Shown in pieces: positions 15,700-51,709 of a stretch of 64,000 nucleotides of DNA. The stretch is from NCBI RefSeq assembly GCF_005877885.1, contig NZ_VCHY01000001.1, forward strand, positions 186,001 to 250,000. Direction: 5' to 3'. A program made the position numbers and the translations under genes. The notes below the pieces were generated by a model, which saw only the letters and a program-made list of their open reading frames with translations, had not been told where the DNA came from and ran no database searches. Each line of letters starts with the position of its first letter. Within the stretch, counting starts at the first letter, position 1. This stretch comes from Labilibacter sediminis. GTDB taxonomy: Bacteria; Bacteroidota; Bacteroidia; Bacteroidales; Marinilabiliaceae.

Positions 15700-16092
15700 T
15701 TATTCTTTATGATCTTGATTTCTTCTCAGTATTCTCATGCCATATTTCGGATATGAAACAATAAACAGTACTAATAGTTGAGCTGTGTTACTGGCAGATA
15801 GACTCTTGGTTGTAGTTGTCATTTCAAAACATACAAAAAAGGCTTTTCGTATTCCAAATTTAACTTTGTGGAACAAAGTATTAGCTGTAGCTGATTCTAT
15901 ATGGCTACACTTATTACAAATTCTAGAACAATTACTTCTCTTCTGACTTGCAGAATGACCACATTTTAAACAAGTATACTCTTCTGAGCATTTCATATAT
16001 GCCAAATATTCCAAGCAATCTTCATCTGATTTGAAGCGTTCAGCAAACGCTAAAAGTAAGGATGTTATAGATGTTGTTAAGTTTCTGTCATG
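15700..16092 (-). pseudogene. Remnant of an IS1595-family transposase
   Basis: The minus-strand reading gives FAERFKSDEDCLEYLAYMKC, then a zinc ribbon with CLKCGH and CNKC, then TANTLFHKVKFGIRKAFFVC and TTTTKSLSAS. This is the N-terminal zinc-ribbon and linker arrangement of IS1595-type (ISXO2-like) transposases. After the SLSAS segment the frame shifts and the DDE domain is absent, so it cannot transpose. No terminal inverted repeats were recognised. It marks a past insertion upstream of the regulator gene at 16118. Confidence 0.6.
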
Positions 16093-16117: not shown

Positions 16118-17665
16118 TCAAACCTTACTTTTCCGAAACACACTAGGAGATTTACCATATTTCTTGGAGAAGCACTTACTGAAGTATTTTGAATCAGAGA
16201 AACCTACATCGAAGGCGATGCTATCAATCTTATTATTCGTTCCCCACAGTTGCACGGCAGCATTTTCTAAGCGGACATTTTGAATAATCTGAATAGCGCT
16301 ATAGCCCGAAACTGCCTTTATCTTACGGTAAAATGTGGAATTACTCATATTGAATTCGGTCGCAATATTGTCTACTTTAAGGTCCGGATTCATGTAGTTT
16401 TCTTCAATATAACAGGTGACATCTTTAAGCCAATCAGCCCCTTCAATTATCTCAGTAGAAACAATAGACCTCATTGGCTCTAAAGAAGGCTGTGCATCAC
16501 CATGGCGTTTTTCGGTGTCTAACTTTTCCAAAAAAGAAGCGTAATCCTTCTTTTGTCGCTGACCCAAAACGTACCATTTAATGGAATACAGAGTCACTAC
16601 TATGATGATTAACAAAGCAAAGACAATTGTTTTTATAAGTTGTCTTTCGCGTGTTCCAATTTTTATAATCAGGTCATCAACCACTTGAATCTGATGGTCT
16701 AATTTCAGAGATTGATGATAGAGCTCCGTAGCCTGGGTATATATATCCTCCGCATTGGTGTGATTGATGGTAATGCTTGGCAATTCTATATATCTTGCTA
16801 CCTGTTCTCCTGCTAGCAGCTGGAGTGCCACTTGTATCGCTTTATCACCACCAGTAGGATAAGAAAAACTGGCCATCAAATGTCCCTTGCGCACAAGGTC
16901 TATGCCTAGATTCTTTCCATATAATCCATCAATTCCAAAAATGGGTATCTCCTTACTTAATTTCTTCAATGCCATTAGTGCGCCTCGTGCCATATAGTCA
17001 TTGTGGGCAAAGATGGCTTGGCAACTATCAAACAGTTCAGCATTAGAGTTCACTAGATCTATAGCACTCTGCTCCGTCCAGTCGCCATCAAGACTACTAA
17101 TTGCAAAAGCCCTATTGGCTGATATTATATCATGAAAACCACTAGCACGCTCCATGCAGGGCGATGAACCTTCGAGCCCTTTTATTTCTACTATATGGCC
17201 CTCTTTTATGGCCCTCACAACTTCATTCCCTACTTTCATCCCTAGAGCATGATTATTGGCACTAATATAGGTCGTGTAATTATCAGAATTTATTTTGCGA
17301 TCAATTACAATGATTGGAATGTCTTCTTGATAAGTCCTGTTTAAATGGTCAACCAGAGGAGCAGATTCGTGTGGACTGACAATTAATAAATCAACACCCA
17401 TGTCTGTAAAAAAGTCAACATCTTTTTGCTGCTTCGCATTGCTGCCGTCTGCATTACGCACTATAAAGTTGATCTTTTTATCCTTAACTAAGGATAGTTC
17501 ACGGTTCATTTCCATAAGCATCTGCTCACGCCACGAATCATCCATCGTACATTGTGAAAAAGCAATGGTATAATCATACTCAGGCTCTTTGGGGACACAT
17601 GAATAAATCACTAATAAACTCAATAACAGAAGAATATTTCGACAAGTAGATATTTTAATCATCAT
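16118..17665 (-). CDS. One-component membrane regulator: periplasmic sugar-binding domain, TM helix, AraC domain
   Basis: A 515-residue protein of unusual build. The N-terminus is a hydrophobic leader ending in a possible lipobox (IYSC, Cys23). Residues about 30-320 form a LacI/RbsB-like periplasmic sugar-binding domain (DYTIAFSQCTMDDSWREQM, DLLIVSPHES, PIIVIDRKI, AIFAHNDYMARGALMAL, IFGIDG). A TM helix lies at about 345-366, followed by a short linker and an AraC/XylS DNA-binding domain at 403-515 (two HTHs: FNMSNSTFYRKIKAVSG and IAFDVGFSDSKYFSKCFSKKYG). There is no histidine kinase and no receiver domain. It is divergent from fructokinase at 17853, so it is probably a fructose or fructan sensor that activates the GH32 operon directly. 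Family knowledge: in Bacteroides the fructose sensor BT1754 uses a similar periplasmic domain but in a full hybrid two-component system. Confidence 0.85.
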   Translation of the reverse strand: MMIKISTCRNILLLLSLLVIYSCVPKEPEYDYTIAFSQCTMDDSWREQMLMEMNRELSLVKDKKINFIVRNADGSNAKQQKDVDFFTDMGVDLLIVSPHESAPLVDHLNRTYQEDIPIIVIDRKINSDNYTTYISANNHALGMKVGNEVVRAIKEGHIVEIKGLEGSSPCMERASGFHDIISANRAFAISSLDGDWTEQSAIDLVNSNAELFDSCQAIFAHNDYMARGALMALKKLSKEIPIFGIDGLYGKNLGIDLVRKGHLMASFSYPTGGDKAIQVALQLLAGEQVARYIELPSITINHTNAEDIYTQATELYHQSLKLDHQIQVVDDLIIKIGTRERQLIKTIVFALLIIIVVTLYSIKWYVLGQRQKKDYASFLEKLDTEKRHGDAQPSLEPMRSIVSTEIIEGADWLKDVTCYIEENYMNPDLKVDNIATEFNMSNSTFYRKIKAVSGYSAIQIIQNVRLENAAVQLWGTNNKIDSIAFDVGFSDSKYFSKCFSKKYGKSPSVFRKSKV

Positions 17666-17680
17666 TATTATTGCAACACT

Positions 17681-17741
17681 TTGAATGAATATTACACTCT
17701 ATTGAATGAATATACCTCTAAAAACAAATAGAATTCATTCA
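17681..17741. promoter_or_regulatory. Repeat operator between the regulator and fructokinase
   Basis: TTGAATGAATAT occurs twice as a direct repeat at 17681-17692 and 17702-17713, spaced 21 bp (two helical turns). A third copy of the core lies inverted at 17733-17741 (ATTCATTCA). Direct repeats spaced by about 21 bp are what AraC-type dimers bind. The location in the divergent spacer makes this the likely binding site of the PBP-TM-AraC regulator. A CATCTTTG box at 17740-17747 could be the -7 promoter element of the fructokinase operon. Confidence 0.6.
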
Positions 17742-17852
17742 TCTTTGACAAACAATTGACAACCTCATCTCAACTGCACTATATCAAAATAAAAAACAAA
17801 AGTATAAAATTAATGGACGTATTGCAGTACAAATGAAAAACAAACAAAACTT

Positions 17853-18749
17853 ATGATAGATCGAATTTTCAATAAGAAAATCCTTTGTTTTGGCGAATGC
17901 CTTTGGGATTGCCTTCCCTCTGGTGACAAAGCTGGTGGAGCGCCTATGAATGTAGCTATTCACTTAAATCAACTGGGTGTATCAGCTGCCTTTGCTACTA
18001 AAGTAGGCCATGATAAAAGAGGCCAGCAGATGCTCGATTTTATTAGCTCAAAGGGCTTACATACGCCCCCTATACAAGTAGACGAAAGCTACGACACAGG
18101 CATCGTCAAAGTCATGCTGGATGATAATAACAATGCAAGCTATGATATCTGCAGTCCGGCGGCTTGGGATAATATAAAACTCACTCCTAAACTAAGGGAG
18201 TTAGCGAAGCAAACAGACATCCTGATAAGTGGTTCTTTGGTTGCCAGAAATAGCATGAGTCGCAAGACACTTCTTGAGCTTATGGCTGATGTGAAGTTCT
18301 TCGTCTTAGATGTTAACTTACGTGCACCATATGACCTACAAGAAGTGGTAGAGCCATTGATTAAGAAAGCTGATTTCGTAAAAGTAAATGACGAAGAGAT
18401 AATCATTATCAGTGCTTGGAATGGGAAAGCTTTTAGCAGCGACGAAGAGGCTATGCGCTGGCTAAAGGAAAGATATGACCTCAGTGTCGTATGCCTGACG
18501 CGAGGTGACAAGGGAGCAGCTATCCTTTGGGAGGATACTTATTATAACCACCAAGGCATCAAGGCCAAAGTCGTTAGAGATACCATAGGCGCAGGCGATG
18601 CTTTCCTGGCTTCACTTATGACCGCTCTCATCAAGGGCTTCTCTATACAGGAGGCGCTGGATAAAGCTATAGAAGTAGGTGCTTATTTAGTAACGCAAGA
18701 AGGGGCCACTCCGCAACTACCAAAAGAAATAAAAGCTATTTTCATATAA
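17853..18749 (+). CDS. Fructokinase, PfkB family
   Basis: A 298-residue PfkB sugar kinase. The substrate-binding block is AGGAPMNVAIHLNQLG near the N-terminus and the catalytic/anion-hole motif is DTIGAGDAF near residue 250. The N-terminal CFGECLWD is typical for fructokinases. It would phosphorylate fructose in the cytoplasm. It is first gene of a plus-strand operon with the GH32 (45 bp gap) and the sugar porter, which fits import and phosphorylation of fructose released by GH32. It is intact, unlike the fructokinase remnant at 4856-5050. Confidence 0.92.
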   Translation: MIDRIFNKKILCFGECLWDCLPSGDKAGGAPMNVAIHLNQLGVSAAFATKVGHDKRGQQMLDFISSKGLHTPPIQVDESYDTGIVKVMLDDNNNASYDICSPAAWDNIKLTPKLRELAKQTDILISGSLVARNSMSRKTLLELMADVKFFVLDVNLRAPYDLQEVVEPLIKKADFVKVNDEEIIIISAWNGKAFSSDEEAMRWLKERYDLSVVCLTRGDKGAAILWEDTYYNHQGIKAKVVRDTIGAGDAFLASLMTALIKGFSIQEALDKAIEVGAYLVTQEGATPQLPKEIKAIFI

Positions 18750-18794: not shown

Positions 18795-21386
18795 ATGAGA
18801 ACTACTTTAAATCTTAAAAATTGGCTGATTTTAATACCAGCCCTACTGTTATCAGTAAGTGCAACAGCTCAAATAAACCCCCACACCCACGAGACTGATT
18901 ATTCTGAGTATTACCGAGGACAGTTTCATTTTAGTCCTCAGAGCGAATGGATGAATGACATCAATGGCTTAGTCTATCAAGGTGGAAAATACCACATGAT
19001 ATATCAGTGGGGTAAGTCCAAAAGACATGGCGGATATGCCACCAGTACTGATTTATTACACTGGGAGGACAAAGGAGTGGCGTTAGTGCCCAAGCAAACT
19101 TTCATAGAGGGAGCAGTGCAGAATGTAAGCGGTAATGAAATCTACTCAGGCAGTGCTGTGGTGGTATCAGGACAAACCGCAAAAGCCATCACAGGATCGG
19201 ACAAAGAAGCCATCATAGCCATTTACACGGGCACAGGCGTAGGTACTTGCTTAGCTTGGAGCAACGATGTGGGTGAAACATGGCACGACTATCCGGGTAA
19301 CCCAGTAGCTCATCCCACTACGGGTGCAGTACCCCGTGACCCTTGTGTATTATGGCACGAAGCCTCATCTAAATGGGTACTCGCCATCTACGAAAAAAGT
19401 AATAACGACGAGAATACCACTTCCTTTTATGGCTCGGCTGATTTAATCAACTGGGATTTTCTAAGCACCATCAAATTTGGCTATGAATGCCCTGACTTGA
19501 TAGAACTGCCAGTAGACGGTAACGCAAACAATATGAAATGGTTATTGTATGATGCCAAAGGCTCTTACCTAGTGGGGCAATTTGATGGTAATACCTTCAC
19601 TACAGATCAAGAGGCATTAATAATGGATGTGGGCCCTGACTTTTATGCCGCACAGACCTTTCCTATGGGTGGTTTGCCCAATGATGACCCACGCATTATT
19701 CAAATAGCATGGATGGACCGCTGGAACGGCGGTGTGGGCGAAACCATCTGGGAGCGCAACGCTACTTTTCCTGTCAGTCTAGGCCTCAAGACCGATGCGG
19801 GAAAAATAAAAGTTACTCGTACCCCTATTAGCCAGATAGAAGACCTCTATACCAATACCATCAGCAAAGAAGCACTAGTGATTGAGCCAGGTGAGAATAT
19901 CCTATCGTCGGTACAATCCAAAACATTTGATCTGACGGCTGAGTTTGACTTGAATGAAACAACAGCAACAAGCTTTGGTTTCAAAATCGCAAATAAGATT
20001 ATTAAGTATGATACCTCAAGCAAAGAGCTTTTGGAAAAATCCTTACTGCCAGACAGCAACCAGCGTATAAAAATTCGAATATTGGTAGACTGGGCCATGT
20101 TGGAAGTGTTTGCCAACGAGGGGGTATTTTCTTTCACTCAACAGTTTGCTTTTACACCTAATGAAAGTTCCCTTGCACTATTTTCAGAGGGAGGCAATAC
20201 CAAACTAGTATCTCTCACTTTCAATGAAGTAGGCCGCATCTGGCCAGGCGAAATTGAGGGACCAAAAAATGCCAGTTCAGAAACAATTATTGATGATAGA
20301 GATAGCCCAAAGAGCTATAGTAGAGGCTGGTGGCAAAGTAATGAAAGCCTTTATTACAAGGGAACGTGTACCGTATCAGGAACAAAAGATGCATCTCTGG
20401 AATGCACATTTGAAGGTAACTCGATAGCGTGGTATGGTTTGAAGAATACGGACCTCGGCTTTGCAAATGTATACATCGATGAGGTATTAGAAGGTAATAT
20501 CGATTGCTACGGTACTGGCCGTGTAGTGACAGCTTTGTTTAGTAAAGATGAATTAGGTGATGGCAGCCATACTATAAAGATTGTAGTGACAGGTGATAAG
20601 AACCCATCATCTGCGGGTACTAGCCTGGAACATGATTACTTTGAGGCAACAAAAAAAGACCGCCCTAACAGCGATGGCTCAATGTACGACCCTATGGACA
20701 ATCTTAACCTTATTTACCGGGCTGAAAATATGGCTATTAGCACTGATAATGCCACCTCTTTCAATAATGATGCAGGACGTAGCAGAAGAGCTGGGAATAA
20801 CCCTACTACAGCTTCTCTGATCTACAAGGTTCATGACATCACGGATTTTACTATTGAGTTTTGGAACTGGAAATGGACGGGAGCAGCCGCATTAAAGGTA
20901 TACGGTTCTGCCGACGACATCACTTATCAAGAAATTCCCCTAGATATGAACTCAGAAGACCCGGGGGGTAGCCATCACTTCAAGACCATAAGCCCTACTG
21001 GTATCATTTCTGAGAACACTGATTATCTAAAAATTGAATTATCAGAAGCCGATGAATGGTGGAAAGACCAGATCGGAAGCATTTCCATTACTGCACAAGG
21101 CAGTGAAGGATCATCCTCTATTGCGGAGGATATTCAGGAAAAAACAGAGTTTACTGTTTTTCCTTCGCCCACGGACTCGTCATTCAGTTTTGAGATACCC
21201 GAAGCCTTTGGTAATACAATTGTCACGATACACTCTATGTCAGGAAAACTAATTAATAAAGAAGCTATTAATGTATCGTGCCAAGCCATTCACACCATTA
21301 ATGTAGCAAGTTATATCGATGGCATGTATATCATCTCATTGCAGAGCAAAACACAATGCTTAGAAAGCAAATTTCTGAAGCTATAA
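18795..21386 (+). CDS. GH32 fructan hydrolase with two accessory modules and T9SS tail
   Basis: An 863-residue secreted enzyme with a signal peptide cut near SATAQ. The GH32 domain spans about 38-485 and has all catalytic residues: WMNDINGL (Asp55; the usual Pro of NDPNG is Ile), RDP (Asp182) and ECPD (Glu231). Residues about 490-620 form a beta-sandwich module (GWWQSNESLYYKG, then HTIKIVVTG) that may bind sugar. Residues 632-766 form a second module (NNDAGR, FTIEFWNWKWTGA, KVYGSADD, YLKIELS, WWKDQIGSISI) that recurs in the GH16 at 26373. Residues about 785-863 are a T9SS sorting domain (VFPSPTDSS, GMYIISLQSKTQ). It is expected outside the cell, acting on levan or inulin. It sits between fructokinase and the sugar porter. 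Confidence 0.93.
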   Translation: MRTTLNLKNWLILIPALLLSVSATAQINPHTHETDYSEYYRGQFHFSPQSEWMNDINGLVYQGGKYHMIYQWGKSKRHGGYATSTDLLHWEDKGVALVPKQTFIEGAVQNVSGNEIYSGSAVVVSGQTAKAITGSDKEAIIAIYTGTGVGTCLAWSNDVGETWHDYPGNPVAHPTTGAVPRDPCVLWHEASSKWVLAIYEKSNNDENTTSFYGSADLINWDFLSTIKFGYECPDLIELPVDGNANNMKWLLYDAKGSYLVGQFDGNTFTTDQEALIMDVGPDFYAAQTFPMGGLPNDDPRIIQIAWMDRWNGGVGETIWERNATFPVSLGLKTDAGKIKVTRTPISQIEDLYTNTISKEALVIEPGENILSSVQSKTFDLTAEFDLNETTATSFGFKIANKIIKYDTSSKELLEKSLLPDSNQRIKIRILVDWAMLEVFANEGVFSFTQQFAFTPNESSLALFSEGGNTKLVSLTFNEVGRIWPGEIEGPKNASSETIIDDRDSPKSYSRGWWQSNESLYYKGTCTVSGTKDASLECTFEGNSIAWYGLKNTDLGFANVYIDEVLEGNIDCYGTGRVVTALFSKDELGDGSHTIKIVVTGDKNPSSAGTSLEHDYFEATKKDRPNSDGSMYDPMDNLNLIYRAENMAISTDNATSFNNDAGRSRRAGNNPTTASLIYKVHDITDFTIEFWNWKWTGAAALKVYGSADDITYQEIPLDMNSEDPGGSHHFKTISPTGIISENTDYLKIELSEADEWWKDQIGSISITAQGSEGSSSIAEDIQEKTEFTVFPSPTDSSFSFEIPEAFGNTIVTIHSMSGKLINKEAINVSCQAIHTINVASYIDGMYIISLQSKTQCLESKFLKL

Positions 21387-21405: not shown

Positions 21406-23004
21406 ATGAAGAACTCACAACTCATTATTTGGTCCATAACAGCTGCTCTGGCAGGTTTCCTATTTGGCTTTGACACCGTGGTCATTTCAGGAGCAGAAAA
21501 ACACATACAAAACCTATGGTCACTGAGTGGCAGCATGCACGGCTGGGCTTCAAGTGCAGCACTATGGGGTACCGTTATCGGCTCATTACTGGGGGCTTAC
21601 CCCACGGCTAAGTATGGGCGTAGGAAGACTTTGATTAGCATTGGTATTTTATACCTTGTGTCGGCTCTAGGCTCGGCTTTCTCCAATGATGTATATACCT
21701 TTATATTTGCCCGCTTAATAGGTGGTTTGGGCGTAGGTGTGTCAACCATTGTAGCCCCCCTTTTTATATCGGAAATAGCGCCGGCCAAGAGCCGAGGGAA
21801 ACTAGCAGGCATGTTTCAGTTCAATATCGTATTTGGTATTTTAGTTGCTTTCTTCTCTAATTACTTAATCGGTTCGTTAATACCCGAAACAATAGCTTGG
21901 CGTTGGATGCTTGGGATTGAAGCTGTGCCCGCACTAATTTATGCGTTGATAGCTTTCACACTGCCCGAAAGCCCACGTTGGCTTATTACCCATGCCAACA
22001 AAAAGGAAGAAGGAGCAGAAGTCTTTCGCAGAATAAACCCACACATGACCGATGCTGAGGTCGACTCTCTCGTTAGTGAGGTGAGTAGTACTAGGGATGA
22101 GAAAACCAAGAAAACACCGTTTTGGACCAAGCGTCTATCCACCCCTATCCTACTGGCTTTTATCATTGCCTTATTCAATCAACTATCGGGTATCAATATC
22201 ATCCTGTATTTTGCACCTCGCTTGCTCGACCTAGCAGGAATCAGTGACACCCTTGCAGCTTCTATCAGCCTTGGGGTAACCAATCTCATATTTACCTTTG
22301 TAGGACTATGGCTCATTGATAAATTAGGACGTAGAATGCTACTCTATATCGGCTCCTTGGGCTATATTCTTTCTCTGGGTATTTGTGCCATTGCTTTTTT
22401 GAGCATCACGGAGTTCAAAGTCGTTTCAAGCGCTATTGATTTGGAAAGCAGTTCCACCCAACTCATTCAAATTGAAAACACCAAGACTTTCCATTCCGAG
22501 AAGGAAAAGCAACGCATCATCACTGATTTTGAAAGCGCCAGACAAGCCTTACAAAAGGCATCCACAGCCGATAGCTATAAAGGGCAAAGTATTGCGATAA
22601 GCGAACAAGCGACACTACCAGAAATAAAGCAGATAGCCCAAAAGGCAAAAGCTGATTCTGCCTACTTACTTGGGAGTACCAGTTGGTTGGTGCTCATCTG
22701 TATTATACTATTTATTGCAGCGCATGCCATTGGTCAGGGAACAGTCATCTGGGTATTTATCTCAGAAATATTCCCCAACGAACACCGTGCGGCAGGGCAG
22801 TCACTGGGTAGTTTTACCCACTGGATTTTTGCGGCCCTATTAACATTACTATTCCCTATGGCCATAAAGGCTTTCGATGCAGGATATATATTCTTATTTT
22901 ACTGCGTAATGATGATATTACAATTGATTTGGGTAAAAATGATGGTACCCGAAACCAAAGGAAAATCACTGGAAGAAATTGAAAAAAAGTTTAATACACA
23001 TTAA
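21406..23004 (+). CDS. MFS sugar porter (fructose/sucrose uptake)
   Basis: A 532-residue MFS transporter of the sugar-porter type with 12 TM helices. Family signatures are visible: GFLFGFDTVVISGA in TM1, GRRKTL in loop 2-3, PESPRWL after TM6, NQLSGINIILYFAP in TM7 and PETKGKSLEEIE at the C-terminus. A loop of about 90 residues rich in charged residues (QLIQIENTKTFHSEKEKQ) is inserted between TM9 and TM10, as is common in Bacteroidota sugar porters. It begins 19 bp after the GH32 stop. The most likely cargo is fructose set free by GH32 and phosphorylated by the adjacent kinase. Confidence 0.92.
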   Translation: MKNSQLIIWSITAALAGFLFGFDTVVISGAEKHIQNLWSLSGSMHGWASSAALWGTVIGSLLGAYPTAKYGRRKTLISIGILYLVSALGSAFSNDVYTFIFARLIGGLGVGVSTIVAPLFISEIAPAKSRGKLAGMFQFNIVFGILVAFFSNYLIGSLIPETIAWRWMLGIEAVPALIYALIAFTLPESPRWLITHANKKEEGAEVFRRINPHMTDAEVDSLVSEVSSTRDEKTKKTPFWTKRLSTPILLAFIIALFNQLSGINIILYFAPRLLDLAGISDTLAASISLGVTNLIFTFVGLWLIDKLGRRMLLYIGSLGYILSLGICAIAFLSITEFKVVSSAIDLESSSTQLIQIENTKTFHSEKEKQRIITDFESARQALQKASTADSYKGQSIAISEQATLPEIKQIAQKAKADSAYLLGSTSWLVLICIILFIAAHAIGQGTVIWVFISEIFPNEHRAAGQSLGSFTHWIFAALLTLLFPMAIKAFDAGYIFLFYCVMMILQLIWVKMMVPETKGKSLEEIEKKFNTH

Positions 23005-23328: not shown

Positions 23329-24885
23329 ATGAGAGAAAAACTAATTATTATTTGCTTGATTTTTTCTGCTACTACTCTTCTGGCACAGAATAAAGTAACG
23401 AATGAGATGATCGTTAATGCAAGAACGCTAAGAACTCTTATTCATTCTGATCCCCATCGACCCTCATGGCATTTTGTTGCTCCGGAAGGTAGAGCCTATC
23501 CATTCGATCCGAATGGGGGCATTTTCTGGAAAGGGAAATATCATCTTGGATTTATCTATCAAGCCTTAAAAAATGGAAAAGAGGAGCACTTTTGGGGTCA
23601 TGCAGTAAGCACCGATCTATTCCATTGGAATTTGTATCCTGATATGCTAGATGTAAGGGATGGAGATATAGAAAAAGGTATTTTTAGTGGTGGGGCATTT
23701 TTAAGTAAAGAGGGCGTTCCTTATATTATGTATCATGGACAAGGATCTTCTACAAATTTAGTGGCTTACTCAACAGATGAGGATCTTAAAAACTGGATTA
23801 AATTTGAAGGAAACCCTGTTCTTAAAACACCGATTAAGGGTGACCCCATGCATGGAAAATACAGAGCCTGGGACCCGGAAGGTTGGTACGATAAAGATGC
23901 CGATTACTACTACCAGATATCAGGTGGTAATCCTGCCGGATTCTTCAAATCAAAAGATATGATTAAATGGGATTATCTTGGCGATCTTATTGATCAAAAT
24001 AACAGGATGCGTTATGATTTTGAGGATCTTTCCTGTCCTGATTTCTTTCAGATAGGAGATAAAAAGATGTTGCTGTTTATTAGTCATAATTTTGGTTCTC
24101 AGTACTATATTGGCGATTTTAAAAGTGATGAGTTTATCGTTGAAAAACACGGACGAATGAATTGGCCCGGAGGAACCTTTTTTGCACCAGAAGAGCTGAA
24201 GGATGACAAAGGCCGCAACATTATCTGGGGGTGGGTATTAGAACGTAAACCCAAACATTTGGAGAATAAAGGATGGGGTGGAGTTATGAGTATGCCACGT
24301 GTTCTTTCTCTCTCTAATAAAGGAGATCTGCTTATTAATCCACCCGAAGAGGTTAAGAAATTACGGCTTGATGGTATTAGTGAAAAAAATATCTCTCTAG
24401 CATCAAATCAAATTAGTACACTGGATATCAAAGGAAAATCACTTGAGATTAAGGCAGAATTTAATGGAGGTAACAAGTCGGAATACGGTGTTAAAGTATT
24501 CTGTTCGCCAGATGGTAAAGAAGAGACTGTCATTAAGTACGATCCTATTCATAAAGAGATAGTTATCGATTTTATCAATTCATCAAAAAATGGCCCTGTA
24601 AAGATGCCTGCTTACTGCATAAGGAAACCTAGCCTCGAAGAATTTGTAGATGAGGTGTCAGAACAGAGGGTTCCTTTTGAGCTAAAGAATGGCGAAACAC
24701 TGCAATTAGATATTTTTATTGATAATGCTATTATTGAAGTATTTGCCAACGGAAGAGCGTGTATTACTCAAGTTGTTTATCCTGAAATGGAAAGAAGTAA
24801 TGAGGTGAAAATTTTTAGTGGAGATGAGAACATTAAAGTAAAAAGTGTGAAAGTGTGGAAGATGGCAACTACTAATTTATATTAA
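23329..24885 (+). CDS. GH32-like enzyme with non-canonical acid/base motif
   Basis: A 518-residue secreted protein with a signal peptide cut near LLAQN. The propeller has PFDPNGG in place of WxNDPNG (nucleophile Asp kept) and AWDPEG in place of RDP. Where GH32 has ECPD this protein has DLSCPDFF, so the normal acid/base Glu position holds Ser; a Glu lies three residues before it (FEDLSCPD). Other blocks are WGHAVSTDLFHW, MYHGQG, LLFISHNFGSQYYIGDF and FAPEEL. It belongs to a divergent GH32 group whose specificity I cannot name. A C-terminal beta-sandwich (DIFIDNAIIEVFANG) is present. There is no T9SS tail, so it is probably periplasmic. Confidence 0.85.
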   Translation: MREKLIIICLIFSATTLLAQNKVTNEMIVNARTLRTLIHSDPHRPSWHFVAPEGRAYPFDPNGGIFWKGKYHLGFIYQALKNGKEEHFWGHAVSTDLFHWNLYPDMLDVRDGDIEKGIFSGGAFLSKEGVPYIMYHGQGSSTNLVAYSTDEDLKNWIKFEGNPVLKTPIKGDPMHGKYRAWDPEGWYDKDADYYYQISGGNPAGFFKSKDMIKWDYLGDLIDQNNRMRYDFEDLSCPDFFQIGDKKMLLFISHNFGSQYYIGDFKSDEFIVEKHGRMNWPGGTFFAPEELKDDKGRNIIWGWVLERKPKHLENKGWGGVMSMPRVLSLSNKGDLLINPPEEVKKLRLDGISEKNISLASNQISTLDIKGKSLEIKAEFNGGNKSEYGVKVFCSPDGKEETVIKYDPIHKEIVIDFINSSKNGPVKMPAYCIRKPSLEEFVDEVSEQRVPFELKNGETLQLDIFIDNAIIEVFANGRACITQVVYPEMERSNEVKIFSGDENIKVKSVKVWKMATTNLY

Positions 24886-46779: not shown

Positions 46780-46830
46780 TCTAATTTGATTTAAGAATTT
46801 TTATAAAGCTGGATTAAAGGCTCCAAATAA

Positions 46831-46944
46831 CTAACTAATAATAATCGCTAGAAACAATGCCACCGTAACAGCAAAAAGACCCATTAAAAAGTATTTTAAT
46901 CGTTTGATATTTCTAATCTCAACATCAATATCTCTATTCTTCAT
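46831..46944 (-). CDS. Small single-TM membrane protein
   Basis: A 37-residue frame with a charged N-terminus (MKNRDIDVEIRNIKRLKYF) followed by one strongly hydrophobic helix (LMGLFAVTVALFLAIIIS). The pattern is what one expects of a small membrane protein. No ribosome-binding site is obvious and no family is recognised. It lies directly upstream of the AraC gene, in the same direction, 51 bp away, so it could be a leader gene. Confidence 0.4.
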   Translation of the reverse strand: MKNRDIDVEIRNIKRLKYFLMGLFAVTVALFLAIIIS

Positions 46945-47307
46945 AACAACTTGTTTTTTTTCACGAAGGCAAGTTGAAAATAAGTACATTATTTTTGATG
47001 GTTGAGTAGTTCAAATACCGTAGGCCAACAAGTCATATTTTTTATAATCAAGCGGTCTGAAAGAGTTGGTAAATCATGCAACACAAAACTACATATCGCT
47101 GAGTATGAGCCTCCAACTCTAAAATCAACATGATTAATTTCACTCAACATCTCCGAATATTAAATGGCTTAGAAAAACAAAGGGTATTAATAAAATGACT
47201 CTTTTACATGAATAGTCGATAAAGAAAAACTGTGCTTATTCATCATTAAAAAAGTAAAGACAAATCAATAATACTATTGCAATGCATAAAGTTTGATACT
47301 CTATAAT

Positions 47308-47572
47308 AACCTGAGTTCGACGTAAAATTATTGGCTCAGACCGCTTATAAATATTGAGTTTCAAGGAATATTTGAGAAGGAATAGTGGGCTATGTCGAAC
47401 AAATATGAAGCAGAAAGTCAATGTTTATAAGTGGTTACCATTGAGCTTTTCATTAAAATACTCATCTACTTCATTAAATTCTATTAACATAGCTCGCTAT
47501 GCCAATAGAATTTAACTTGTATATCAGTGTTTAATGAAATCTGAGCTCTATAATTTTAATCGAACTCAGGTT
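47308..47572. repeat. Nested palindromic element, 265 bp
   Basis: AACCTGAGTTCGA at 47308-47320 is mirrored exactly by TCGAACTCAGGTT at 47560-47572, with AAAATTA next to both. Inside, GAGCTTTTCATTAAAATACT near 47441 pairs with AGTGTTTAATGAAAT near 47527, and in the centre TTAAATTCTATT (47475-47486) pairs with AATAGAATTTAA (47503-47514). The whole could fold into one long cruciform. No coding content is seen. Confidence 0.7.
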
Positions 47573-47621
47573 ACAATAGAAAAAACACTTGTTTATGGAT
47601 AACCCTTGAGAATAAACAGAT

Positions 47622-47659
47622 AACCTTTTATAATGACAAGATTGCTATTATAAAAGGTT
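47622..47659 (-). terminator. 13-bp perfect hairpin after the HTCS gene
   Basis: AACCTTTTATAAT and ATTATAAAAGGTT are exact inverted repeats separated by 12 bases, 28 bp beyond the HTCS stop codon. A clear U-tract is missing, so it may act as a weak terminator or an mRNA-stabilising hairpin. Confidence 0.5.
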
Positions 47660-47686
47660 ATGACTTATGAAAAAGTGCTTTATTAT

Positions 47687-50600
47687 TTAGGATTTATAAG
47701 TAGTTCTATATTCACTTGGCGACAGATTATAAACCTCGCGAAAGTTTTTTCTGAAATTTCTGATATCCAAATAACCTACACTCTCCACTACTTCAGAAAC
47801 GGTTAAATCAGATTCTTTTAAAAGTTTAGCTGCTTTTTTCAACCTTATGGTTTTAATAAAGGATGATGGTGATTGATCCGTTGCTTTTTTAATTTTACGA
47901 TATAAAGTTGATGAACTCATAGCCAATTCCTTTGCCAATGCTTCGGGCGTAAAATCTGGTTTATTCAGGTGCTTATCTAGCGCTTCAATTGCTTTATCCA
48001 GAAACCGGGCTTCAGATGAAGTAATTTCTTCATGTTTTGATTCCAACACAACTTTACTCGAATACTTTTGCTTTAACTTTTTTCTGGTAGCAATTAACTG
48101 CTTTACCTCTTCTAAAAGCAGATCGGGAACAAAAGGTTTTTTAATATACAAGTCGGCCCCTTTTTTTGCACCTAACAACTGTTCTACATCACTTCCTTTG
48201 GCTGTCAATAAAACTACCGGGATATCTGAAATTAAATCGTTTGTTTTAATTTTTTCGCAAAGTTCATATCCATCCATACCTGGCATCATTACATCCGACA
48301 ATACTAAATCCGGCTTAATGCCAATTACTTTTTCAAATCCCTGAAATCCGTCTTGTGCTTCAATCACCTGATAATACTCTCCAATAATCTCTAAAAGATA
48401 ATTTCTTACTTCCTCATTATCTTCTACAATAAGCACAGTTGCCCCCTTGGTGCCGGTATTTACTGTCGCTTTAGGAACTATTTGTGTATGGTCCGGCATA
48501 ATGTCAACAAATTCTGTATTATCTTCCAACTGTGCTGGTGTAAAATGATCTTTACCTTTCTTAAGGTATACTGAAAATACAATTAGTCCTTCCGGATCAT
48601 TACTAACATGTACTTTACCTTTATGCAGCTCTGTGAATGATTTAACCAAATTTAAACCGATCCCACTACTTCCTATAGAACTGTCCCCTTTCCCCTGATA
48701 AAAACGCTCAAAAAGATGATCTATTTCTGAAACAGAAATGGGCTGCCCTTCATTTTTTACACTGATGCAGTACTGATCCGACTCATCTGTAACCTGAATC
48801 CACACTTTACCTTTGGGAGTAACATGTTTAAATGCATTGGATAATAAGTTTGAAATTACTATGGTCATCCTTTCAGAATCCACATATACCAAAGTATCTT
48901 TAGAGTTATAATCACTACGGAAACGAATCAACTTATTTTTAGCCAAGTGCCTAAAAGGTTCACTGTTTTCCTCTATTAGCTCTTGTAAATTTACCTGACT
49001 TACTTTTAAGGTAATTTTACCCGAATCCATTTTTCTAAATTCCAACAGTTGATTCACCAGATTGTATAAACGAGTTGTACTATGGCCTATTAAACCTATT
49101 CGTTCATTAAAAAAAGCTGGGTTTATTTCTGAAAAATCTTTACTCATTAATTCTTTAACAGGAGCTAAAATCAATGTAAGAGGTGTTCTGAACTCATGTG
49201 AAATATTGGTAAAGAACCTTAGCTTAAAATCATTTATTTTTTTGATTTGTTCATTATGCATCTTTTCCATTTCAATACCACTCTGCAATCTCTCCTGACG
49301 ATTATTCACCCAAAGAATAACTCCCACAAAACCCATGATTAGCATGACGTATCCTATAATGGCATACTTACTTTTCCAGGGAGCAGGCAATACAGATAGC
49401 TCAATTGATTTAATGTGCTTGCTCCAGATTCCATTACTATTTGTTGCTTTTATTTGAAGTTTGTAATCTCCCGGCTTTAGATTGCTAAATGAAATATTTC
49501 GCTGGTTTCTAATATTTATCCAATTTAAATCATGACCTTGCAAGCGATAAGCATACTGATTTTTATGTGGGGCTTTATAATCTAACGATGCTACCTTAAA
49601 TGAAAACTCCAGTTCTTTGTGCCCCAGTTCCAGCCTGGAAATTTCATTGATCGTTTTATTAAGTATGCTGCCGGATCCGTTAACGGAAACTTCATTGTTT
49701 AAAATAGAAAAATTTGAAATCACCACAGAAGGATTATAGTTATTCTTCTTTATTTCTTTTGGATTAAAAAATGTAAGTGCCGAATAACCTCCAAAATATA
49801 AATTCCCCTTTTTATCTTTATAGCATGCACCCTCTGAAAAACTTGCATCCCCTAATCCATCGGCTTTATCGAAATTAAGCAACTGATTGCTTTCAGGATT
49901 TAAACTTGAAATTCCTGCATTGGTTGAACACCAGATTAATCCATCATCACTCACTAAAATACCATTGATATAATCATCGGCTAAACCATTGTCTTTATTG
50001 TATGCTAAAAGTTTAGGTCGATCAACTCTGTTTAAATCCAGTTTATACAAGCCACATGGCGTTCCAAACCAGAGGTTACCATTTTTATCAAGCTCCAAAT
50101 TCAGAAGAATATCGCAGGCCAAAGGTGTAACAATACCCAAGTCGGCCAGTGAAGAAAAGGTCAAATCATTTGGGTTCAATTTATAAAGGCCTTTATAAGT
50201 GGCAAACCACATATTTCCCTTAAAATCCTTTTTAATAAATGTTACCCTATCATCTTGCAGCATGCTGGTTCCCGGTCCACTTGTAAAGTGTTTTACCAAA
50301 CGGTACTTATTATCTTCCTTTTTAAAAAGATAAACCCCACTTTGCTGTGTAGCAATCCACAATTGATTGTTATCAAAATAAAATTGATGAACCTTCTTAA
50401 CCTGTTTAAAATGATCATCAAAATAGCTTTCCGCTGTAATCAGATAAGGTTCAGAAGATTTATCCTGCGCAATAATATAAACACCTCTTTCTAAGCTTAT
50501 CCATATTCGCTTATCCGGATCAATATTTATGGCTTTTACCGATAAATTATCTACATGGTCTGATACACCAATAGAACCTGTTTTTACCTTATTAAAGGTA

Positions 50601-51709
50601 ATCTTATCATCTGAATAATATAATCCATTTCCATTTGTTCCTACCCATGTTCTACCATCTTCATCAACCAGGACTGCACTAATATGAGTTTTTACTTTTC
50701 GTAAATTGTCGATAACGCCAACACTTTTAAAATTGTTTTTAGATGATAAACGAACGATACCAGCCTGGGTACCTAACCAAACATCTCCAACATTATCTTC
50801 ATAAATGACTCTGATTACGTTAAAATCAACAGGGGCAGCATCATGATTTGGTGGGTAAATATCAATTTTCTGAAATTCTTTTTTCTTTTTATCAAACAAA
50901 AACAATCCGTTACCCCATGTACCAATCCACAATTTACCATGGGAATCATTCAGCATACAAAAGTTTTTAACTTTAACTGGCTGTTGATTAATAAATACCT
51001 CAGACCTTAATGTTTTATAATTAACCTTCATTAATTCCTGAGTCCAGCCAAGAGCCCACAAACAAGAATTTTTACTATCAACACTTATCGCAGTTACGCT
51101 TCCTCCTCCAAAATTTATAAATTGATTACCAGTTGTTTTTTTATATTTCAAGCCAACACTGGAAGCAATCCATATAGTTTCATCCTCTGTTTCTGCAATT
51201 TCCCGTACCTGATTTAGCCCCGGATAATGCATTACGGTATCTTGCTTAATGCATAAAACACCATTTGACCACGAACCTATCCATGTATTCCCTTTGCTAT
51301 CTTCAAAAAATGAAAGTATTCTGTTTATGGAATACTGTTTAGGAATATTTATTTTTTCAAAAACTTCTTTTGATACAACGTACTTTGATGGGCCTCCTGA
51401 TTTTAAACCTATGTTAATATCAAATGATGAGTTAAGATACAGATTCTCTATGGATGGATTTGACAGGCTATTGGAATCTACGACAGAAGGTTTATAATGC
51501 TTGAATTCATATCCATCATATCGGTTGAGGCCTCCACGCGTGCCAAACCACATAAAACCATAATGATCCTGTACTATTGATGTTACTTCGTTGTGAGATA
51601 AGCCATCTTCAACCGATAAAAAACCAAAACGATATTTATTTGACGATGAAAATATTGAATTGCAACAAAAACAAAATAAAACAGCAAATAATAAAGGCAT
51701 CCTAAGCAT
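47687..51709 (-). CDS. Hybrid two-component system sensor-regulator (HTCS)
   Basis: A 1340-residue HTCS. After a signal peptide come two seven-bladed Reg_prop propellers (repeats such as IVQDHYGFMWFGTRGGLNRY and EDSKGNTWIGSW) and a Y_Y_Y domain (YRLQGHDLNW, LKPGDYKLQIKATN), all periplasmic. A TM helix lies at about 785-805. The cytoplasmic part has a histidine kinase (His838 in FTNISHEFRTPL; NLLSNAFKHV; GIGLNLVKS), a receiver domain (phospho-acceptor Asp1139 in SDVMMPGMDGYE) and an AraC HTH pair at the C-terminus. HTCSs sense oligosaccharides and switch on polysaccharide-use genes. Which of the clusters here it controls cannot be told; the sugar-acid operon and its neighbours are the nearest. 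Confidence 0.95.
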   Translation of the reverse strand: MLRMPLLFAVLFCFCCNSIFSSSNKYRFGFLSVEDGLSHNEVTSIVQDHYGFMWFGTRGGLNRYDGYEFKHYKPSVVDSNSLSNPSIENLYLNSSFDINIGLKSGGPSKYVVSKEVFEKINIPKQYSINRILSFFEDSKGNTWIGSWSNGVLCIKQDTVMHYPGLNQVREIAETEDETIWIASSVGLKYKKTTGNQFINFGGGSVTAISVDSKNSCLWALGWTQELMKVNYKTLRSEVFINQQPVKVKNFCMLNDSHGKLWIGTWGNGLFLFDKKKKEFQKIDIYPPNHDAAPVDFNVIRVIYEDNVGDVWLGTQAGIVRLSSKNNFKSVGVIDNLRKVKTHISAVLVDEDGRTWVGTNGNGLYYSDDKITFNKVKTGSIGVSDHVDNLSVKAINIDPDKRIWISLERGVYIIAQDKSSEPYLITAESYFDDHFKQVKKVHQFYFDNNQLWIATQQSGVYLFKKEDNKYRLVKHFTSGPGTSMLQDDRVTFIKKDFKGNMWFATYKGLYKLNPNDLTFSSLADLGIVTPLACDILLNLELDKNGNLWFGTPCGLYKLDLNRVDRPKLLAYNKDNGLADDYINGILVSDDGLIWCSTNAGISSLNPESNQLLNFDKADGLGDASFSEGACYKDKKGNLYFGGYSALTFFNPKEIKKNNYNPSVVISNFSILNNEVSVNGSGSILNKTINEISRLELGHKELEFSFKVASLDYKAPHKNQYAYRLQGHDLNWINIRNQRNISFSNLKPGDYKLQIKATNSNGIWSKHIKSIELSVLPAPWKSKYAIIGYVMLIMGFVGVILWVNNRQERLQSGIEMEKMHNEQIKKINDFKLRFFTNISHEFRTPLTLILAPVKELMSKDFSEINPAFFNERIGLIGHSTTRLYNLVNQLLEFRKMDSGKITLKVSQVNLQELIEENSEPFRHLAKNKLIRFRSDYNSKDTLVYVDSERMTIVISNLLSNAFKHVTPKGKVWIQVTDESDQYCISVKNEGQPISVSEIDHLFERFYQGKGDSSIGSSGIGLNLVKSFTELHKGKVHVSNDPEGLIVFSVYLKKGKDHFTPAQLEDNTEFVDIMPDHTQIVPKATVNTGTKGATVLIVEDNEEVRNYLLEIIGEYYQVIEAQDGFQGFEKVIGIKPDLVLSDVMMPGMDGYELCEKIKTNDLISDIPVVLLTAKGSDVEQLLGAKKGADLYIKKPFVPDLLLEEVKQLIATRKKLKQKYSSKVVLESKHEEITSSEARFLDKAIEALDKHLNKPDFTPEALAKELAMSSSTLYRKIKKATDQSPSSFIKTIRLKKAAKLLKESDLTVSEVVESVGYLDIRNFRKNFREVYNLSPSEYRTTYKS

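Follow-up and report, generated by a model that had tools for sequence, protein, structure and literature searches.

A membrane-bound regulator joining a BT1754-type sugar-binding domain directly to an AraC domain beside fructan genes of Labilibacter sediminis

The window, a stretch of 64,000 nucleotides from Labilibacter sediminis, holds a gene whose product joins a periplasmic sugar-binding domain through one membrane helix to an AraC-type DNA-binding domain, and this raises the question of whether such a protein controls the fructan genes beside it and how it relates to the hybrid two-component systems (HTCS). Pfam search identified Peripla_BP_4 (E 7e-28) and HTH_18 (E 6e-20), both passing the curated cut-offs, where the first-pass annotation had proposed an RbsB-like periplasmic domain and an AraC domain; the other two matches are an overlapping HTH_AraC and a weaker, overlapping Peripla_BP_1. 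No Pfam match to HisKA, HATPase_c or a receiver was found in the regulator at E ≤ 0.001, and none between the transmembrane (TM) helix and the HTH, in agreement with the absence of kinase and receiver that had been claimed. The same search detected all three domains in two HTCS relatives and is thus able to reveal them, while a kinase hidden between TM and HTH is excluded, given that just ~70 residues separate the end of the TM at 362 from the start of HTH_18 at 434. Hydropathy gives a single strong TM segment at residues 344-362, close to the helix near 345-366 that had been annotated, together with an N-terminal hydrophobic segment ending 'IYSC'. Thus of the features of an HTCS, the periplasmic N-terminal sensor, the TM and the C-terminal AraC domain are present and the histidine kinase and receiver are absent by Pfam. 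Sensor, TM and DNA-binding domain on one chain without two-component domains is the make-up of a membrane-bound one-component regulator, or transmembrane transcription regulator (TTR), and the protein is best read as such a regulator made of HTCS-type parts, for which we infer the ligand, polarity and mechanism.

Table 1. Coordinates of the regulator gene, its domains, the candidate operator and the presumed target genes in the window.
Feature	Position	Strand	Basis or remark
Membrane-anchored one-component regulator	16118..17665	-	515 aa, ATG start; ORF, Pfam, fold
Signal peptide, residues 1-23, lipobox-like 'IYSC' (Cys23)	17597..17665	-	hydropathy, scripted pattern
Periplasmic sugar-binding domain Peripla_BP_4, residues 34-288	16802..17566	-	Pfam, best PDB match 2x7x
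Transmembrane helix, residues 344-362, within predicted continuous helix 305-387	16580..16636	-	hydropathy, predicted structure
AraC-type DNA-binding domain HTH_18, residues 434-512	16130..16366	-	Pfam
Candidate operator, three half-sites TGAATGAA: 17682-17689 (+), 17703-17710 (+), 17734-17741 (-)	17682..17741		shuffles
PfkB-family sugar kinase, fructokinase-like, presumed target	17853..18749	+	Pfam; best model fructokinase, under its cut-off
GH32 with T9SS sorting tail, presumed target	18795..21386	+	domain search
Sugar-porter MFS transporter, presumed target	21406..23004	+	domain search
Second GH32, possible target, 324-bp gap in front	23329..24885	+	Pfam

Cys23 is nearly invariant across an alignment of 11 proteins of the one-component (OC) form, defined here as a single frame of 491-596 aa covering sensor and HTH. 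A scripted lipobox pattern, which misses some sites plausible by eye, is found in 10 of 12 OC rows and 22 of 39 HTCS rows, so the lipobox-like cysteine looks like a family trait and not proof of lipidation, which is putative for the regulator. In the AlphaFold model (alignment of 42 sequences; mean pLDDT 91.3, pTM 0.65) the stalk, the TM and the first cytoplasmic part form an unbroken helix, the linker 389-406 has pLDDT < 50 and the HTH bundle starts at 402. Given that the pTM is only moderate, the placement of the sensor relative to the AraC domain is not predicted by the model. A single TM helix is a usual substrate of regulated-proteolysis proteases, and the linker, predicted at low confidence, is perhaps disordered. 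This raises the possibility that the AraC domain is released by such proteolysis and that the protein is a tethered precursor, not a membrane-bound DNA binder. However, this is improbable for two reasons: first, the candidate operator described below adjoins the regulator gene, so that tethered binding would be geometrically easy. Second, CadC is described as working at the membrane in full length (PMC5936718).

Both sequence and predicted fold place the sensor in the BT1754 fructose type. The best match among solved structures is 2x7x, titled 'Fructose binding periplasmic domain of hybrid two component system BT1754', both in the sequence search (E 3.5e-56) and in Foldseek (TM-score 0.94 by target length, rmsd 1.2, 38% identity), which bears out the likeness to BT1754 noted at the outset. 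Residues S37, Q38, W45, Q79, R123, R173, D223, D246 and Y269 are common to 60-68 of the 68 other sensors compared. D122, R123, R173, N222 and D246 align with RbsB pocket motifs, whose residues we take to be the sugar contacts of RbsB, and are kept in the window protein and in 62-67 of the 68. Fructose is therefore the ligand we infer from these comparisons, and the neighbouring genes would suit it: the annotated setting of fructokinase, GH32 and porter genes divergent to the regulator gene is present, with starts at 17853, 18795 and 21406, and is followed by the second GH32 gene from 23329, also divergent. Together the kinase, the GH32 with the T9SS tail, the porter and the second GH32 form a plausible route from fructan to fructose phosphate, a gene setting that resembles the one around BT1754-type HTCS. 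The 532-aa porter matches its family in two separate parts and carries an additional segment following residue 334. On the other side, just past the 3' end of the regulator gene, lies a short ORF with CxxC pairs (15700-16014, minus strand), presumably resembling a transposase zinc-ribbon fragment.

It is possible that the architecture is as described and that the ligand is another monosaccharide, or that the protein is mainly a repressor relieved by sugar. RbsB-like domains bind many sugars, and the PDB matches of the sensor by Foldseek also include ribose, galactofuranose, arabinose and inositol binders. Furthermore, PfkB, MFS or GH32 proteins related to those of the window occur in 34 of the 39 HTCS stretches compared and in just 4 of the 11 other OC stretches (G180, G088, G089 and G635), which makes the fructose setting less regular among OC than among HTCS genes; SusC/SusD-like genes, identified by eye from translations, follow several of the remaining OC genes. 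As to polarity, the first half-site of the candidate operator, which begins 17 bp ahead of the start codon of the regulator gene, would be well placed for autorepression. Set against this, the BT1754 sensor, the nearest solved, binds fructose, and the neighbours in the window are fructokinase-like and GH32 genes; a different sugar or a repressor is accordingly rather unlikely, and a fructose-responsive activator is the preferred reading.

A candidate operator for such an activator is likely to lie at 17682-17741, ahead of the fructokinase gene, judging from its repeats. Between the regulator and fructokinase genes TTGAATGAATAT is present twice, 21 bp apart; the first two TGAATGAA half-sites have this same distance, the third is inverted and the last ends 112 bp before the PfkB start codon. 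The three-site score of this region is reached by 0 of 3000 shuffles in a test shaped after the site had been seen, and is the top score among the window's intergenic regions. An exact 12-bp repeat at a spacing of 20-22 bp arose in 1 of 5000 shuffles, and at any spacing of 10-100 bp in 61 of 5000, while in an earlier and weaker direct-repeat test the region was matched by 6 of 300 shuffles. Given the weak outcome of the looser repeat tests, the case for an operator depends on the spacing and on the third site, which were examined post hoc. A repeat-finding program reported no direct repeat in 17600-17870, where the scripted count locates the exact 12-bp repeat. No match to a 20-base half-site pattern was found in the window, and a sigma-70 promoter scan gave 1 site against 2.6 expected. 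In a genome-wide search for the repeat pair with up to 3 mismatches, no second copy with fewer than 3 mismatches was found. Independent support comes from published HTCS operators, which are described as direct repeats, among them a pair of 12-bp sites separated by 9 bp and a pair of 16-bp sites separated by 5 bp (PMC3878776), each with a 21-bp period.

The layout also recurs beside other OC genes. Among promoter-type intergenic regions (100-300 bases), a score of at least 22 was reached by 9 of 26 beside OC genes, the window included, by 0 of 34 beside HTCS genes and by 2 of 122 others, both of the latter being A+T-rich runs; the remaining 17 of the 26 OC regions (either flank) score below 22, and the 907-base region 46780-47686 of the window, which exceeds this size range, likewise reaches 22. 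A classical HTCS of 1340 aa with Reg_prop and Y_Y_Y domains is encoded at 47687-51709 of the window (minus strand). For the three-site score a shuffle p ≤ 0.02 was obtained, in the two orientations, for 13 and 14 of 26 downstream flanks of OC genes and for 0 and 2 of 26 upstream flanks, the corresponding counts for HTCS being 2 and 4 of 42 downstream and 2 and 1 of 42 upstream; the rows are related, so these counts are not independent. In seven OC relatives of one genus the aligned sequence downstream of the OC gene contains two copies of TGTTGCA at a distance of 21 bp, with inverted copies farther on in six of the seven; the stretch of the seventh ends earlier and that of an eighth relative is too short to include. 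Given that HTCS targets may lie away from the HTCS gene, the contrast between OC and HTCS is no more than suggestive, and the three-site layout found at the HTCS of G1036 indicates that it is not peculiar to OC. Where the layout recurs at other OC loci it lies downstream with the half-site TGTT(G/T/A)CA, unlike that of the window, a difference in keeping with the different HTH of the window protein. This difference in half-site sequence raises the possibility that the repeats serve another regulator and that the window protein acts elsewhere. There is only an outside chance of this, given the 21-bp period shared with the published HTCS motifs, the enrichment of the layout beside OC genes relative to the 122 other regions and the lack of a second such repeat pair in the genome at fewer than 3 mismatches.

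How common the OC form is was examined with the window protein as query in overlapping samples of 61, 71, 393, 395 and 395 genomes, and with the proteins of two relatives as queries in 15 and 200 genomes around these relatives. At most three candidates per genome were scored in the 393-, 395- and 395-genome samples and at most seven in the 200-genome sample, so the counts are lower bounds. At least 27 OC proteins, the window's included, were collected for trees: five from a further genus within its family, including two with a longer linker, six from one genus of a second family, 14 from one genus of a third, and G635 alone, from the same class as the window and a different order. G1022, whose frame is flagged with one stop, was counted from its later start (491 aa), and fragments or interrupted genes (G084, G848, G1026, G971, G448 and a second copy in G180) were left uncounted. 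One OC gene, at L137:3923-5467, is cut by a stop codon into a sensor of 291 aa and a TM-AraC piece of 219 aa, and has intact relatives. Most sensor matches among those listed lie in frames of ~900-1000 aa, the size of an HTCS; the 39 HTCS rows are those retrieved whole, many other HTCS-sized matches being unused. In the genome samples the window protein had no close orthologue, the full-length matches among those listed sharing 32-34% identity with it.

The same sensor is found in further settings. In the window's own genome only the regulator and a 674-aa protein match the window protein at E ≤ 1e-28; the latter, a BT1754-like sensor on a kinase alone, with HisKA and HATPase only, is encoded at L147:9329-11353 (contig C1 near 478328, outside the window), and a sensor on a kinase alone occurs also in G503. 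The sensor is joined to a SpoIIE phosphatase in G322, and at L150:6215-8236 a SpoIIE-type phosphatase domain carries this periplasmic sensor; it is joined to kinase and receiver in G033, and to HisKA, receiver and AraC without HATPase in G392 (Pfam). At L108:382-2574 an HTCS has HisKA, receiver and AraC domains, with HATPase undetectable and His and Asp motifs that look intact. A peptide-pattern scan of genome contigs gave 32 loci, by title nearly all of Clostridia type, plus Paenibacillus (HTH only) and 'bacterium MS4'; in no case did a sensor frame match the window's HTH as well. In one of them, L039:7092-10153, a receiver-AraC regulator gene is directly followed by that of a 618-aa protein with two tandem sugar-binding domains (Pfam on L039), and many other Clostridia loci of the scan have sensor frames of similar make-up.

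Forms such as L108, which retains HisKA and receiver without HATPase, and the long branches of the window protein in the trees described below raise the possibility of a decayed HTCS, in which kinase and receiver were lost and the gene is non-functional or dependent on a kinase in trans. This is very improbable: the frame is intact, the pocket positions are conserved, both domains are confidently folded and the three-site repeat is exact. The OC relatives are, moreover, under strong purifying selection, with dN/dS of 0.06-0.11 for the whole protein and 0.01-0.08 for the HTH in six pairs of relatives, in some of which synonymous sites are near saturation; such low values indicate that the OC form is a working gene and not a product of decay. 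Kinase or receiver domains were found by Pfam in none of the 14 OC relatives scanned.

The origin of the OC form was approached with a sensor tree (69 rows, 320 columns), an HTH tree (110 columns) and a second, larger sensor tree built without the rows of kinase-only, SpoIIE, other 'x' and Clostridia type, without four PBP rows and without G084, which is cut by the contig end. The OC label changes five times in the sensor tree, four of these being forced by well-supported branches, and the corresponding numbers for the larger tree are seven and four. A single clade of all OC proteins is rejected by the sensors (p-AU 4e-53, log-likelihood 142 lower), still so without G635 and G312, and by the HTH tree as well (p-AU 3e-9). 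The OC protein of G180 pairs with the G392 HTCS, which lacks HATPase, in both the sensor tree (100/96) and the HTH tree (99/85), and those of G012, G088 and G089 lie near the HTCS of G178 and G359 in both, with weaker support; excision of the kinase-receiver part would give this pattern. The OC clade of 14 is sister, by sensor, to the full, Pfam-checked HTCS of G1036 (100/99), which is not its sister in the HTH tree. With sensor and HTH pointing to different HTCS as the nearest, excision is at most a possible origin of this clade. The change counts alone are silent on direction; that from HTCS to OC rests on the nesting of OC among HTCS, with the root placed on stand-alone binding proteins.

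The window protein itself has a long branch in both trees and lies near the base. Its HTH is set apart, together with those of HTCS and OC proteins, from eight other AraC domains (98/89) and lies outside the BT1754-type group (95/96), near HTHs labelled as of Y_Y_Y type, a label that for these 15 rows we assume from frame length; only L024 among them was Pfam-scanned, its stretch ending before the sensor. The data do not reject a tree with the HTH inside the BT1754-type group (p-AU 0.22) or one with the sensor inside the HTCS/OC group (p-AU 0.27), so that the protein either is an ancient member that evolves fast or was assembled separately. The description of the protein as a short-circuited HTCS in the first-pass annotation stands for the family, in which the OC forms are not one clade and several nest among HTCS in both trees; for the window protein, which sits on a separate long branch and has an HTH that groups with those of other HTCS, excision from a BT1754-type HTCS is at most possible. 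An evenly balanced account would be that a fructose HTCS turned more than once into a membrane one-component regulator, dropping a phosphorelay dispensable for signalling by this sensor while keeping the 21-bp grammar and elaborating it into facing half-sites, and that the window protein arose independently, put together from a sensor of BT1754 type and a DNA-binding domain that came from a different kind of HTCS.

Taken together, these observations make it probable, at roughly two in three, that the regulator is a fructose-responsive membrane one-component activator of the divergent fructan operon, acting through the candidate operator. The half-site unlike that of other OC loci, the long branches and the 4 of 11 OC stretches with PfkB, MFS or GH32 relatives count against this fructose-operon reading. 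In the proposed mechanism, exported GH32 enzymes would free fructose from fructans, and periplasmic fructose would bind the RbsB-like domain and close it. The closure movement would travel along the continuous stalk and TM helix to at least two cytoplasmic AraC domains, which would pair on the half-sites that stand 21 bp apart in the regulator-fructokinase intergenic region and switch on the kinase, GH32 and porter genes, and perhaps also tune the regulator's own promoter. Since neither kinase nor receiver was detected, phosphate transfer within the regulator would not be expected.

Beyond the first-pass annotation, the layout is found to recur in relatives, a candidate operator is present and the N-terminus is lipobox-like. 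In the open-licence literature searched no description of a sugar-binding-TM-AraC one-component protein was found, which is weak evidence of absence, and its repeated rise among fructose HTCS with a facing-repeat operator was likewise not met there. One-component systems are usually considered older than two-component systems (PMC5936718), and the reverse step, from two components to one, seems to have happened more than once here. Given that full HTCS, HTCS without the ATPase domain and OC forms share one sensor family, the contribution of kinase and receiver in gain, timing and threshold becomes directly testable with sensor, operator type and pathway alike, and the OC form may supply short, single-gene sugar switches for Bacteroides-type hosts.

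Comparison with known systems sets the regulator apart from several of them. XylR of E. coli joins a periplasmic-binding-type fold to an AraC domain and is cytoplasmic, with neither signal peptide nor TM; a protein of this kind is ruled out by the hydrophobic N-terminus and TM of the regulator. In the ToxR/CadC family the DNA-binding domain is cytoplasmic and N-terminal and the periplasmic sensor C-terminal (PMC5936718), and this type is ruled out by the reversed domain order and the AraC-type HTH. SusR of B. thetaiotaomicron is likewise a membrane protein with a periplasmic sensor and a cytoplasmic DNA-binding domain, and activates a glycan locus; however, that domain is described as without significant similarity to other known regulators (PMC3878776), a description that sets SusR apart from the regulator, whose clear HTH_18/AraC match rules out this type. 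Membrane one-component regulators, membrane-bound AraC proteins near polysaccharide genes and the shortened two-component protein Rsp are already in print (PMC10269533, PMC2386152). The membrane-bound AraC regulators of Saccharophagus degradans resemble the window protein in having an AraC-type domain on a membrane protein beside polysaccharide genes, but six of them have 2 or 6-7 TM regions and the account consulted mentions no sugar-binding domain (PMC2386152). In TTRs a single protein carries sensor, TM and DNA-binding domain, as here, and Bacteroidia are reported to be rich in them (PMC10269533); 'AraC', 'HTH_18' and 'periplasmic binding' do not occur in the main text of that survey. Rsp of Neisseria gonorrhoeae, in which the PilS membrane part is joined to the PilR DNA-binding domain, is similarly a two-component pathway shortened to one protein, although its domains differ and it is reported as a repressor of pilA (PMC10269533). 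The nearest parallel in sensor type, BT1754 (HTCS_Fru) of Bacteroides thetaiotaomicron, has kinase and receiver between TM and AraC (PMC3878776, PMC3404733), neither of which is detected in the window protein, and shares with it the sensor family, the TM, the C-terminal AraC domain and the position beside fructan genes.
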